A program made the position numbers and the translations under genes. From positions 1 to 48,094 of the forward strand of contig WFTS01000027.1 in the NCBI GenBank assembly GCA_015485385.1: 48,094 nucleotides of DNA, written 5' to 3'. Below, piece after piece: positions 30,472 through 35,737 of the stretch. This DNA comes from Kordiimonadales bacterium. Its GTDB lineage: Bacteria > Pseudomonadota > Alphaproteobacteria > Sphingomonadales > Kordiimonadaceae. Below the pieces are notes generated by a model that was not told the origin of the DNA, searched no databases, and saw only the letters and a list, made by a program, of their open reading frames with translations. Each line of letters begins with the position of its first letter. The stretch's first letter is position 1.

Positions 30472-30501
30472 TTAATGGCGGAGCTTGGCCTTCGCCATTA
30501 A
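30472..30501. terminator. Hairpin between convergent genes
   Basis: A perfect 9-bp stem, TTAATGGCG / CGCCATTAA, with a 12-base loop, between the NTF2-like gene and the convergent binding-protein gene. It has no long T run on either side, so a bidirectional terminator role is likely but not certain. Confidence 0.5.
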
Positions 30502-30525
30502 ACCGATGATATACGGATGAAGGCC

Positions 30526-31368
30526 TTATTTCGCGAAAATGAAGGCCGGGTTACTGGATTCCACTGGCTTTGCTCGCGCAAGCATATGTGTCATGGTTTG
30601 GGCGTTAAGAGCTTTGGAATAGCCGGTTTGCCACATGTTGATAAAGGCTGCTTCAAGCTGGGGAGCTAATGCAGCGTTTCGTTTGTGAATAAGATGAAAT
30701 AGAGGTTCCACGATCAACGGTTTCCCTACAATTCTAATCTCGTTTTTTGGTAAAGAAAAGCGCGCAAGAGTAACTCGGATATCGCGTTTGATACCAATGC
30801 CTACGTCTATTCTTCCGGCAAGAAGTAAGTTGACAAGTTGTGTATAGTCACTTGTTGTCAAAGGGGCCATGTCCCGTGTAAGCATTTCGGCATACCGTTC
30901 GCCGCTGACAATACCTATTTTTAAGCCTTGCAGATCTTTTACACTTTCCATTTTCAAGCTGGTGGATTTGGTGATCACAACCCCTTCAATTTCAATTACG
31001 GGGCTGCTCAGAGCAATTAAGTTTCTATATTCATGGGGCGTGCCTCGAATTCGAGCAACCTCACCATCAAATTTCCCTGCATTCGCCATGACAATTGAGC
31101 GCCGGCATGGAAGTGCTGCGAATTTTGCGGTGATGCCAATCCGCCGGTAGGCCTCAGAAACTAATTTCTCCGCAAAATAGTGGGTTGTATGATTTTCGCA
31201 CCTTGCGATGGTTAGTATGCGCTCAACCTTTGCTGTTGGTAAGCTCTGTAAATCTGTTGTTTTTTGAAGTGGTAAATTAGCATCCGCAGTATACGCAGGG
31301 CTTGAAATTAATATTGATAGGTAAAAGATTGGACCAACAATCAGTTGAATGGCATTCTGCCTTTTCAT
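30526..31368 (-). CDS. Orphan periplasmic solute-binding-like protein
   Basis: A 280-residue exported protein of the family 3 binding-protein type (SBP_bac_3). The signal peptide ends near SSPAYTA-D. The mature part has LTIARCENHTTHYFAEKLVSEAYRRIGI, the typical LQGLKIGIVSGERYAEML hinge, and a final helical section. No permease or ATPase is nearby, so it may act as a sensor or belong to a distant transporter. Two cysteines (RCEN, LPCRRS) may form a disulfide. The ligand is unknown. Confidence 0.75.
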   Translation of the reverse strand: MKRQNAIQLIVGPIFYLSILISSPAYTADANLPLQKTTDLQSLPTAKVERILTIARCENHTTHYFAEKLVSEAYRRIGITAKFAALPCRRSIVMANAGKFDGEVARIRGTPHEYRNLIALSSPVIEIEGVVITKSTSLKMESVKDLQGLKIGIVSGERYAEMLTRDMAPLTTSDYTQLVNLLLAGRIDVGIGIKRDIRVTLARFSLPKNEIRIVGKPLIVEPLFHLIHKRNAALAPQLEAAFINMWQTGYSKALNAQTMTHMLARAKPVESSNPAFIFAK

Positions 31369-31711
31369 GATTATCCCTCAATTGAATGTTCCGGAAGGTT
31401 TAAATGACTTTAACCTTACCGAAACCATCGTAATTTAGCACTATACTCTATGTTCGAGATTTTGTTGCATCTTAATATATGACAAGATGGTGAGTGCCTG
31501 AAACTATGTTTAATTTTGTCATGAATGCAGTCAGGAAAATGCAAACGAAAGAATATTTCTCTGAGTTTTTCAGGATTCCCCTAGTTTTTGGCATAAGTGT
31601 GTATTTTGTCAGTAAATTTGAAATATAATTTCACAAAATAAGCCCTTGCGAATATATTATAATTTGTTACACCTTTGGCGGATCGAAAATACCACAGCTT
31701 ATTGGGCGTAA
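31369..31711. other. Intergenic region between the binding-protein gene and the leu leader
   Basis: AT-rich, with promoters for both directions. An imperfect palindrome at 31393-31420 (GGAAGGTTTAAA / TTTAACCTTACC) lies just upstream of the binding-protein gene. TATAAT at 31658-31663 is a good -10 for the leu leader, but its -35 is poor. A small ORF at 31506-31628 is listed separately. Confidence 0.5.
31506..31628 (+). CDS. Possible small membrane protein
   Basis: A 40-codon frame, MFNFVMNAVRKMQTKEYF..., with a hydrophobic stretch IPLVFGISVYFV near the end. The composition (basic amphipathic start, then a short apolar segment) is protein-like, but the ribosome site is poor (GGTGAG 11 bases away), and I know no homologue. 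Confidence 0.25.
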   Translation: MFNFVMNAVRKMQTKEYFSEFFRIPLVFGISVYFVSKFEI

Positions 31712-31888
31712 ATGGTTCACAGTACAGACATTAAGAGGCAAAGCGGGCTGAAAGCGAACGTTGTAACCGTGTCTACTGACGCGGTGGCTCCTCGGTGTAG
31801 TCTTCTGTCATTCAGCGGCGCAGTTGTGACGCTTTGTTTTCTATTGTTGCTGGAGCTCTTAGACACTGGCCGACTTATCGGCCCTTAG
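31712..31888 (+). CDS. leuL: Leucine leader peptide for leuA attenuation
   Basis: A 58-codon frame from ATG 31712 (or a shorter 20-codon one from GTG 31826). Its key part is CTT TGT TTT CTA TTG TTG CTG, then GAG CTC TTA: seven Leu codons in ten, using all six leucine codons. Downstream, GGCCGA-CTTA-TCGGCC (31868-31883) competes with CCCTTAGGC / GCTTAAGGG (31882-31932), so ribosome position on the Leu codons would choose the fold. leuA starts 95 bases after the stop. Peptide-based control of leuA is known in proteobacteria; here there is no clear U run, so the output may be translational or Rho-dependent. A -10 TATAAT is at 31658. Confidence 0.7.
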   Translation: MVHSTDIKRQSGLKANVVTVSTDAVAPRCSLLSFSGAVVTLCFLLLLELLDTGRLIGP

Positions 31889-31983
31889 GCAATCGGTGCG
31901 TGGCGCGAAAGTTGCGTAACAATGCTTAAGGGGAATGCCAATGATTTCATTTTTCAGGTTTGATAAAAAATAGGAATAGAGCC

Positions 31984-33537
31984 ATGTCACAAAGTGACAA
32001 GAACCATGTGAGAATTTTCGATACGACATTGCGGGACGGAGAACAATCGCCCGGCGCATCGATGACTTTGGAAGAAAAGCTTAACATCGCTGAAGTGTTG
32101 GATGCGATGCAAGTAGATGTGATTGAGGCAGGTTTTGCCATTGCTTCAAACGGTGATTTTGAATGCGTGAAAAAAATCGCCGAGCGCATCAAAAATTCAA
32201 CAGTTTGCTCCCTTGCGCGTGCGGCGATTGGCGATATTGAGCGCGCGGCTGAGGCATTAAAGCCTGCTGCGAATGCACGTATCCATACATTCATTGCTAC
32301 CAGTCCGCTGCATATGCGCGTTAAATTACAAATGCAGCCTGATGAGGTTCTGGACGCGATCCACAAATCGGTTAGCCGCGCCCGTAATTTTGTTGGGGAT
32401 GTGGAATGGAGCGCTGAGGACGCAACCCGTACTGAGCTTGATTTTCTTTATAAAGCTGTTGAAACCGCGATTAAGGCGGGGGCAACGACGATTAACCTGC
32501 CGGACACTGTGGGTTACGGAGTACCCGAAGAATATACGGCTATGTTTCGCTCGGTGATTGAAAATGTGCCAGATGCAGACAAAGTGATTTTTTCCACCCA
32601 TTGCCACAATGATTTGGGGCTTGCTGTAGCGAATTCTTTAGCAGGGCTTGCTGGCGGTGCGCGTCAGATAGAATGTACCATTAACGGTATAGGCGAGAGA
32701 GCAGGTAATGCTGCCATGGAAGAGATTGTTATGGCGCTGAAAACCCGCGCCGATATATTGCCGTGGCACACCAATATTAAAACCACAGAGATTATGCGGG
32801 CTTCAAAATTGGTGTCTACAGTGACAGGCTTTGCAGTTCAGAATAATAAAGCCATTGTTGGTGCAAATGCATTTGCGCATGAGGCTGGTATTCACCAAGA
32901 TGGTGTGCTGAAAGATGCAGAGACCTATGAAATCATGACACCTGCGTCGGTTGGTGTAACCAAGTCAACGTTGGTGATGGGTAAGCATTCGGGACGGCAC
33001 GCATTCGCGGACAAACTTCAGGATTTGGGCTACGAGCTAGGCGACAATGCCTTTCAAGAATGTTTTCGCCGCTTCAAGGCACTGGGGGACCGCAAGAAAA
33101 ATATCTATGACGAAGATATTATCGCACTTGTTGATGATGAGGTCGCAACGTGGGCAAATCGGATGCAGGTGATTTCTGTAAACACCTATTCTTCCAGTAA
33201 TGGGTCGGCTGTTTGTGATCTGACAATGACAGTGGACGGCGATAAGGTAAAAACGGTTACTTATGGCTCTGGTCCTGTGGATGCGGCCTTTAATTCGGTC
33301 AAAGACTTGATCAATATATCGCCACACTTACAGTTGTTTCAAGTGCATGCCGTAACACACGGAACGGATGCTCAGGCCGAATGTACCGTGCGGTTAGAGC
33401 ATGATAACCGAACGGTTAACGGGCAGGGGGCACATGAGGATACTATTACGGCTGCTGCGCGTGCATATGTATCTGCGGTCAATAAACTGTTGGTCAAGCG
33501 AGAGAAAAAAGCCCCCGGGCCTGTCGCGGTACAGTAA
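31984..33537 (+). CDS. leuA: 2-isopropylmalate synthase
   Basis: First committed step of leucine synthesis: acetyl-CoA plus 2-ketoisovalerate to 2-isopropylmalate. It has 517 residues, with the catalytic TIM barrel first (FDTTLRDGEQSPGASM, STHCHNDLGLAVANSLAG, GIGERAGNAAMEEIVM) and a C-terminal LeuA allosteric domain that binds leucine (about residues 390-510). The frame opens at TTG 31960, but ATG 31984 has AGGA nine bases upstream. It sits behind the leucine leader peptide. Its substrate comes from the ilv pathway encoded 4 kb upstream. Confidence 0.97.
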   Translation: MSQSDKNHVRIFDTTLRDGEQSPGASMTLEEKLNIAEVLDAMQVDVIEAGFAIASNGDFECVKKIAERIKNSTVCSLARAAIGDIERAAEALKPAANARIHTFIATSPLHMRVKLQMQPDEVLDAIHKSVSRARNFVGDVEWSAEDATRTELDFLYKAVETAIKAGATTINLPDTVGYGVPEEYTAMFRSVIENVPDADKVIFSTHCHNDLGLAVANSLAGLAGGARQIECTINGIGERAGNAAMEEIVMALKTRADILPWHTNIKTTEIMRASKLVSTVTGFAVQNNKAIVGANAFAHEAGIHQDGVLKDAETYEIMTPASVGVTKSTLVMGKHSGRHAFADKLQDLGYELGDNAFQECFRRFKALGDRKKNIYDEDIIALVDDEVATWANRMQVISVNTYSSSNGSAVCDLTMTVDGDKVKTVTYGSGPVDAAFNSVKDLINISPHLQLFQVHAVTHGTDAQAECTVRLEHDNRTVNGQGAHEDTITAAARAYVSAVNKLLVKREKKAPGPVAVQ

Positions 33538-33683: not shown

Positions 33684-34475
33684 ATGACAGATACGATTGC
33701 ACAAGAACCAATGGGCGGCTCAGTACCTGAGGAACCACAGCCGGCAACACCTTATCAACTAACAATAAAGCGCGGATTTTTGGCCTTTGCCATTATGTTG
33801 GGGAGCCAAATTTTAGTTGGTTTCATTATGGCCTTTGTCCCGTCTGTACTCGCAGCACTGAATGGTGAAAAACCAGAAATAAACATTGTTTCCATCACAA
33901 TATTTTCGGTGCTTATCAGCGGCTTTTTTTTATGGTGGTGGGTCCGCAATGATATGCGAAGATTTGGTCCGTCTTTCGCCCCACAAATTGGCTTGAGACC
34001 CAGCAGTATGTCTGTGCGTGATATTGTTATTCTATCTGTGGTGACATTTGCTGCTGTGAGATTTCTATCTATGGCTTATATGGGCGTGGTGTCCGAACTT
34101 GGCGGTGATGCTGACAGTGTAGGGGCCGCAGAACAAATATTTGCAGCAGCCCGTGAGAATGGATCAGTTTTTGATAAATACGGTATGTTATTTACTGTGA
34201 TTTTTGTGGCTCCTTTTCTTGAGGAACTAGTCTTCCGGGGGTATCTGCAATCTTCATTGCTTCATAAAATGCCGATATGGGCTGCTATTTTCATTTCTTC
34301 AGGCGTGTTCGCCACAGTGCACGGCAACCTTGTTCTATGGCCGATTTATTTTATGCTCGGCGCCAGTATGGGGTGGGTGTTTTATAAAAGTGGTTCCTTG
34401 AGGGCCGCCATCGGTTTTCATCTGGTGAACAATCTGATTTTTGGCATTGTGGCTGTTATGGGGTGGACAATTTAA
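33684..34475 (+). CDS. CPBP family intramembrane glutamic endopeptidase
   Basis: Predicted membrane protease of the CAAX-processing/bacteriocin-processing (Abi, Rce1-like) family, 263 residues, about seven or eight hydrophobic segments. The catalytic signatures are present: EELVFRG (EExxxR) at about residue 177, FATVHG (FxxxH) at about 211, and a final FHLVNN. The first 25 residues are a polar, Pro/Glu-rich cytoplasmic tail. Substrates are unknown. Its ribosome site lies in the right arm of the hairpin at 33634-33676. Confidence 0.87.
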   Translation: MTDTIAQEPMGGSVPEEPQPATPYQLTIKRGFLAFAIMLGSQILVGFIMAFVPSVLAALNGEKPEINIVSITIFSVLISGFFLWWWVRNDMRRFGPSFAPQIGLRPSSMSVRDIVILSVVTFAAVRFLSMAYMGVVSELGGDADSVGAAEQIFAAARENGSVFDKYGMLFTVIFVAPFLEELVFRGYLQSSLLHKMPIWAAIFISSGVFATVHGNLVLWPIYFMLGASMGWVFYKSGSLRAAIGFHLVNNLIFGIVAVMGWTI

Positions 34476-34506
34476 TAGGCCTGCTAACGAATAGGCCCGC
34501 ATAACG
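34474..34506. repeat. 16-17-bp tandem duplication at the CPBP stop codon
   Basis: AATAGGCCTGCTAACG (34474) and AATAGGCCCGCATAACG (34490) are 15 of 17 identical; the first unit begins inside the TAA stop codon. Confidence 0.75.
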
Positions 34507-34702
34507 CCTCTTGTAAAAAGGGTGCCTTTGAAGCCTTAGTTGGACCGTATTGGGCCGCTTTTCCATTTGAGGAACAAAAACTCGCCGCAATCCTGTGGTA
34601 GGGTCGTGTTTCTGGTTGTCTCGCAGGGGTTTCTGCCGCATAACCTATGCTAAGAGTCGCGCTGCGACGCGTTTGATTAATTTATTTTTTAAGAGGCACT
34701 AA

Positions 34703-35737
<1,035 letters not shown>

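Follow-up and report, generated by a model that had tools for sequence, protein, structure and literature searches.

A probable leucine-sensing leader peptide ahead of leuA in Kordiimonadales and other Alphaproteobacteria

Introduction

How a bacterium adjusts the synthesis of 2-isopropylmalate synthase to its supply of leucine is a question raised by the roughly 600 bases that separate leuA from a divergently oriented gene (30526-31368) in a Kordiimonadales genome, where a frame of 58 codons is found. We analysed a window of 48,094 nucleotides, which is one whole contig (WFTS01000027.1, contig C27 in our numbering) of a 2.97 Mb assembly, and all coordinates refer to it. A first-pass annotation had read the frame as a leuA leader peptide that employs all six leucine codons and is followed by two mutually exclusive stems. 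We were interested in whether this reading holds among relatives, which of the leucine codons is under selection, and at which level the leader might act.

Results

The leuA locus and its upstream elements

The gene leuA (31984-33537, forward strand, with an ATG at 31984) encodes 2-isopropylmalate synthase, an assignment of the first-pass annotation that is borne out by the family models NF002087 (823.6 bits, cut-off 729) and TIGR00973 (688.1 bits, cut-off 598.7). The start codon is preceded by the Shine-Dalgarno sequence AGGAA (31972-31976, forward strand), whose pairing with the leader varies with the stretch folded. The closest named loci, 19 in number (L026-L044), encode LeuA proteins 76-86% identical to this one and belong to Kordiimonadales wherever the record is named to that level. 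The contigs of L027, L073, and L098 are filed under Aerophobetes, Gammaproteobacteria, and Bacteroidetes with leuA genes close to alphaproteobacterial leuA, and are probably binning errors. Downstream of leuA (33684-35737), we found a gene for a CPBP-type membrane protease and then mreB; other leucine genes do not follow.

A promoter-like element, CTTGCG ... TTACAC (31645-31672, forward strand), was recognised by eye and by a similar spacing in several relatives; our guess is that transcription starts near 31680. Upstream of this element lies the inverted repeat GAAATATAATTTC (31620-31632), a candidate operator whose dyad recurs in relatives. We scanned 20 upstream regions, namely those of the window and of L026-L044; 12 of them contain a perfect dyad, GAAATnnnATTTC or GTAATnnnATTAC, and symmetric changes are seen in L035, L040, and L044. 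With one mismatch, the repeat is found at six further sites in the same genome, against a single match for the backward control. These sites include positions upstream of ilvD (L297), of leuC (L300, nearly 500 bases ahead), and of a gene of the LL-diaminopimelate aminotransferase family (L301), each at about 1501-1516 of its locus. The repeat is possibly the operator of a branched-chain amino acid regulon.

The leader frame in the window and its close relatives

The frame extends from the ATG at 31712 to the TAG at 31886-31888 on the forward strand (31712-31888) and ends with LCFLLLLELLDTGRLIGP-stop. Codons 41-50 (31832-31861, forward strand) comprise CTT, CTA, TTG, TTG, CTG, CTC, and TTA, i.e., seven leucine codons of all six kinds, and an additional conserved CTT lies outside this cluster as codon 55 (31874-31876). 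Such a cluster, placed ahead of leuA as the annotation had described, is rare by chance: among 2000 dinucleotide-preserving shuffles of 31369-31983, only four contained at least seven leucines per ten codons in a frame of at least 20 codons, and only two had all six leucine codons within eleven codons.

In all 19 of the closest named loci (L026-L044), a frame at the corresponding position terminates with G-[R/H]-L-x-[G/S]-P-stop; the stop is TAA, TGA, or TAG, and a leucine-rich stretch precedes this end in most of them. No ATG was found for the frame in L027 and L033. In DNA-aligned leaders of relatives, third codon positions diverge most, with values of 0.554/0.529/0.679 for the three positions over the N-terminal part and 0.389/0.313/0.585 over the final 20 codons, the pairs compared not being independent of each other. 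An earlier coding test on 14 pairs counted 106, 78, and 146 differences at codon positions 1, 2, and 3, a result that is biased because the pairs had been selected on peptide similarity. A KAKAIA-like stretch is common to the N-terminal part of many Kordiimonadales leaders, and a similar ARAIA is visible in L054 and L212. The 58-codon frame is thus very likely a leader peptide. Conservation in close relatives, for which the first-pass annotation had asked, is present: the leucine codons, the leader end, and the two stems described below are kept among them.

A motif and a reading frame shared across the class

The last codons of the leader contain the heptamer CGACTTA (31871-31877, forward strand), which comprises an arginine codon, a leucine codon, and the next base. 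We counted motifs in 119 leuA upstream regions from genomes of the class, picked without using the motif (120 were fetched from among the LeuA matches, weak matches being left out; L237, which was not oriented, was excluded). CGACTTA is present in 46 of them where 1.4 would be expected, CCCCTGA in 60 (3.2 expected), and TCAGGGG in 51 (3.0 expected); in 66, an open frame runs into a stop codon that forms part of a hairpin's 5' arm. The other 53 upstream regions are without a recognised motif, and some of these carry variants. In another set of 111 loci, 33 lack a recognised motif. CGACTTA is nevertheless found ahead of leuA in nine of these 33, although in L051 it is remote from a leader-like place, and inspection by eye revealed a leader of a Leu-Leu type in L054, L058, L062, L067, L087, and L089.

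CGACTTANNNGCCCYTRA occurs in 41 of 289 genomes of the class, against four of 289 for the backward control, and all 30 loci fetched from these 41 matches precede a leuA, in 29 cases of the TIGR00973 kind and within about 320 bases, and in one case (L107) of the TIGR00970 kind. Among 398 genomes of the phylum, CTTANNNGCCCCTGA followed by TCAGGGG 12-42 bases on was found in 21, every one listed under the same class, and the backward control in none; this pattern is blind to the CCCTT form found in the window's own order. A scan with the narrower pattern CCCTTRA...TYAAGGG gave two of 249 genomes for the pattern and its backward control alike and is not used as evidence. Two motif matches in viral contigs lie amid other genes and were taken as chance.

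Among the 30 best-scoring loci of the TIGR00970 type, a CGACT[TA]A leader is present at least once in 23 and twice in 11. The same leader module stands ahead of both of these unrelated-looking kinds of leuA and is doubled before many genes of the TIGR00970 type. In these 30 loci (L262-L291), the leaders occupy the region 190-460 bases ahead of leuA; where there are two, the first has an end like LRLTxPxL or RLI, and the second often RLIGGRxA.

We compared the three frames at the 124 CGACTTA sites ahead of both kinds of leuA. The frame that begins with CGA reaches a stop within 10 codons at 119 sites, the other two at 12 and 55; the 15 codons upstream are open at 123 sites in the CGA frame and at 66 and 88 in the others. 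CGACTTA can therefore be taken to encode Arg-Leu close to the C-terminus of a peptide, since this frame is open upstream and stops soon after. The same counts speak against an untranslated RNA element, in which CGACTTA and the adjacent hairpin would be bound by a protein or by a second RNA, with the frame being incidental, as do the excess of third-position changes and the leucine codon that most exceptions to CGACTTA retain. Conservation of the heptamer letters beyond the need of the peptide, beside a hairpin, agrees with such an element, and a binding protein has been argued for the actinobacterial LEU element (PMC1262725); nevertheless, we regard this explanation as highly improbable.

The leucine codons and the sensor position

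Coverage of all six leucine codons, which the first-pass annotation had taken as a design against shortage of any leucine isoacceptor, did not survive comparison. From 172 distinct leuA upstream regions (class genomes and named loci), 98 leaders with a comparable arrangement were scored over their last 17 codons after near-identical sequences had been dropped. Only two of them, the window and L026, have all six, which leads us to reject full coverage as a conserved design. The number of leucine codons in this stretch ranges from 1 to 10 with a median of 6, and is three or fewer in 12 of the 98; several of the relatives L026-L044 have two or three leucine codons.

The near-invariant element is instead a single leucine codon 12 bases before the stop, which is CTT in 87 and CTA in 11 of the 98 leaders. 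The search that defined these leaders required CTT or CTA at this position; a second search for other leucine codons added L162 with CTG and also matched L161, probably by chance. The base following this codon is A in 94 and the codon preceding it CGA in 75 of the 98. In the long frames of the window, CTT makes up 23% and CTA 10% of the leucine codons, and CGA 10% of the arginine codons; CTT is therefore not rare in this genome. According to two reports on E. coli under leucine starvation, CUU, CUC, and CUA slow translation the most and UUA and UUG less, and the latter two would serve poorly as control codons (PMC3783181, PMC1183508). The conserved CTT/CTA fits these codon sensitivities, and, because UUA and UUG respond less, the addition of TTA and TTG need not widen sensing.

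The A after the sensor codon in 94 of 98 leaders led us to consider a +1 frameshift at CTTA; the other frames at CGACTTA sites have no short open end in common. The strong conservation of R-L and P-stop in leaders of the R-L type could also point to an arrest peptide, in which a nascent R-L-x-x-P-stop would hold the ribosome and leucine or its tRNA would tune the hold. TnaC holds the ribosome with tryptophan in this manner, and the KAKAIA conserved further up in many Kordiimonadales leaders would suit such a peptide. However, P is replaced by L or A with the stem retained (L074, L084, L061), the stop position shifts in L047, L064, L073, and L076, R gives way to leucine codons in the second leader type, and CGA and CTT are fixed as codons, beyond their residues. 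The fixed C-terminal residues and stop of a TnaC-like peptide are thus absent, and we judge arrest by the nascent peptide very unlikely. A leucine-sensing attenuator of the leader-peptide kind, on the other hand, very probably precedes leuA.

Stems A and B

Two stems overlap the end of the leader frame on the forward strand. Stem A (31868-31883), GGCCGA-CTTA-TCGGCC, lies in the last leader codons, and stem B (31882-31932) pairs CCCTTAGGCA (31882-31891) with TGCTTAAGGG (31923-31932). A consensus fold of 15 relatives recovers exactly these two stems, with five pairs in stem A, some of them broken in one to three sequences, and with a two-sided change in just one of 15 pairs. The conservation of both stems in close relatives is thereby confirmed, whereas the mutual exclusion ascribed to them was too strong a claim: they overlap by two bases only and coexist side by side in the minimum-energy fold, so that they do not form an antiterminator/terminator pair of mutually exclusive structures.

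Stem B of the window is a form of the class hairpin CCCCTGA...TCAGGGG, with the stop codon of the leader within its 5' arm. The ten bases following CGACTTA find a downstream partner better than shuffled sequences do (p<0.02) in 35 of 46 upstream regions, compared with none of 46 for a control stretch of the same length. In a set of 77 different stems, the second position of the stop codon forms a G-C pair in 59, A-T in 17, and G-T in one, and is never unpaired; these counts lean towards pairing because the partner was taken as the best match anchored on three pairs. The stop has moved with the stem retained in some members, e.g., L047 (CCCCAAGCGG with CCGTTTGGGG). These compensatory changes across the class support hairpin B.

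CGACTTA itself may pair with a TAAGTCG-like site downstream, though not uniformly. The longest exact match reached p<=0.05 in 11 of 46 upstream regions and in none of 46 for the control stretch; With near-identical sequences removed, GTCG sites downstream number 39 against 28.4 expected (sd 5.2), and the next base is complementary in 20 against 9.8 expected. We consider these counts suggestive.

Hairpin B and the transcriptional alternative

The lack of a U run behind stem B in the window, from which the annotation had concluded that classical intrinsic termination is not the output, proved correct, and such a run is not general in the class either. Of 96 leaders, six have five or more T among the nine bases that follow stem B (3.9 expected) and five have runs of four T (1.55 expected), and the mean T content there was 0.200 against a background of 0.224. 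An intrinsic terminator is therefore not supported as the general output, although a few members are terminator-like: hairpin B is followed by eight T in L241, by five in L044, and by ATTTTTAT in L177, and could act as a terminator in these three.

The same members lend some plausibility to attenuation of transcription, in which hairpin B, alone or with Rho, would halt transcription once the ribosome leaves, and a stall at the leucine codons would block B and allow read-through into leuA. A ribosome waiting at the leucine codon 12 bases before the stop could touch the 5' arm of B, and the Caulobacter ilv genes are described as attenuated in transcription through a leader frame (PMC4117421). 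Against it, T is not generally enriched behind B, and the window has no such run; a ribosome at the stop codon would mask the same 5' arm; and in L146, L161, L048, and others the leader runs on through the arm. We therefore consider a transcriptional output possible but rather unlikely.

Pairing of the leader with the Shine-Dalgarno sequence

An output at the level of translation would call for pairing between the leader and the leuA Shine-Dalgarno sequence, for which the class provides statistics on 103 usable sequences from 144 clusters (41 were without the motif, a start, or enough length), kinship being handled roughly, by clustering. The mean probability of pairing with the leader was 0.543, as opposed to 0.314 with a shuffled leader (p = 9e-9) and 0.348 with the leader of another species (p = 7e-7). 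The unpaired probability of the Shine-Dalgarno sequence was 0.318 for RNA without a ribosome; placing a ribosome at the CTT gave 0.461 (p = 1e-6), and a block of the same size upstream gave 0.367 (p = 0.034). When only the final 18 bases of the leader segment were considered, the pairing excess of 0.253 exceeded that of shuffled leaders (0.060, p = 0.019) and was not significantly above that of swapped ones (0.110, p = 0.13). An earlier run on 123 sequences, from which near-identical ones had been dropped, had given 0.580 against 0.389 for the pairing, and its Kordiimonadales subset 0.396 against 0.344 (n = 17, without a p value).

Closer to the window, the consensus fold of the 15 relatives contains stems A and B only, i.e., no pairing of the Shine-Dalgarno sequence. 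In the window itself, folds of 31820-31995 or of a similar stretch show this sequence paired, and a fold of the longer predicted transcript shows it 0.70 unpaired. In the longer fold, stalls at codons 41-50 leave it 0.49-0.70 unpaired, i.e., without a rise, whereas a stall at codon 55 (CTT) gives 0.79 and one at the stop 0.77. Translational read-out is thus drawn from the class, because folds of the window and of Kordiimonadales give weak or unstable pairing. With this in mind, we lean towards translation as the output of the attenuator.

Discussion

A model for leucine sensing

Under a translational output, the leader might work as follows. With ample leucine, the ribosome would complete the leader and depart, hairpin B would form, and the leader would then fold back onto the Shine-Dalgarno sequence, keeping leuA expression low. 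Under a shortage of charged tRNA-Leu, the ribosome would wait at the leucine codons and mask that strand, so that the leuA start would stay open; CGA ahead of CTT may slow decoding further. A tentative generalisation is an old sensor common to alphaproteobacterial and actinobacterial leuA mRNAs, in which dwell at one CTT/CTA-A codon, typically slowed by CGA and located at the foot of a stop-containing hairpin, would set leuA translation by covering the strand that hides the Shine-Dalgarno sequence. We hold this broader proposal to be doubtful on present evidence.

Comparison with known systems

Covariance models of Rfam release 15 gave no match to 30500-33000 up to an E value of 1. Classical transcription attenuators have control codons in a leader peptide, as found here, together with a terminator hairpin followed by a U run; in the window, no U run follows stem B. 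In the translational attenuators of the erm and cat genes, a ribosome waiting in the leader frees a hidden ribosome-binding site. We propose the same freeing of the binding site for leuA, with the difference that the signal would be uncharged tRNA-Leu rather than an antibiotic.

The enterobacterial leu leader (leuL; the Rfam leu leader family) likewise has a leader peptide with leucine codons ahead of leuA, but it acts by attenuation of transcription with a terminator and has adjacent CUA control codons (PMC1183508, PMC3783181). The Caulobacter ilv leader shares the bacterial class, the connection to branched-chain amino acid genes, and a leader frame; it differs in the Ile/Val codons and the rho-independent terminator described for it (PMC4117421). 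Within the literature searched, mostly without subscription journals and with the 2004 survey of Vitreschak et al. (FEMS Microbiol Lett) outside it, we found no description of an alphaproteobacterial leuA leader, and an earlier mention is possible.

A close likeness is to the LEU element of actinobacterial leuA, a short frame with a run of leucine codons. Seliverstov et al. (2005; PMC1262725) proposed that its leucine strand pairs with the Shine-Dalgarno sequence of leuA. No intrinsic terminator was reported for this element, and a conserved pseudoknot between the base strands is described for it (PMC1262725). Both leaders lie directly upstream of leuA and share a run of leucine codons, which amounts to seven in ten codons in the window and to a class median of 6 in the last 17. 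Pairing of the leucine strand with the Shine-Dalgarno sequence is statistical for the class and not robust in the window or in Kordiimonadales. In contrast to the LEU element, the alphaproteobacterial leader typically contains CGACTTA, and its stop is usually found within the 5' arm of a hairpin of the form CCCCTGA/TCAGGGG. For comparison, we used three actinobacterial leuA leaders and one from Sinorhizobium meliloti pSymB. The actinobacterial ones (L292-L294) end LLLLSCRDESSD, LLLSCRGGGL, and LLLGCRGGV, and CTTAGCTGC occurs in two of the three and likewise in the alphaproteobacterial L045, L049, and L053. These similarities suggest that the alphaproteobacterial leader and the LEU element may derive from a common element. 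If our reading is correct, a leader absent from Rfam, as judged in the window, governs leucine synthesis in much of the Alphaproteobacteria and reveals which leucine codon evolution selects as the sensor. It would then offer a testable case of amino acid control at the level of translation and bear on the unsolved actinobacterial LEU element.
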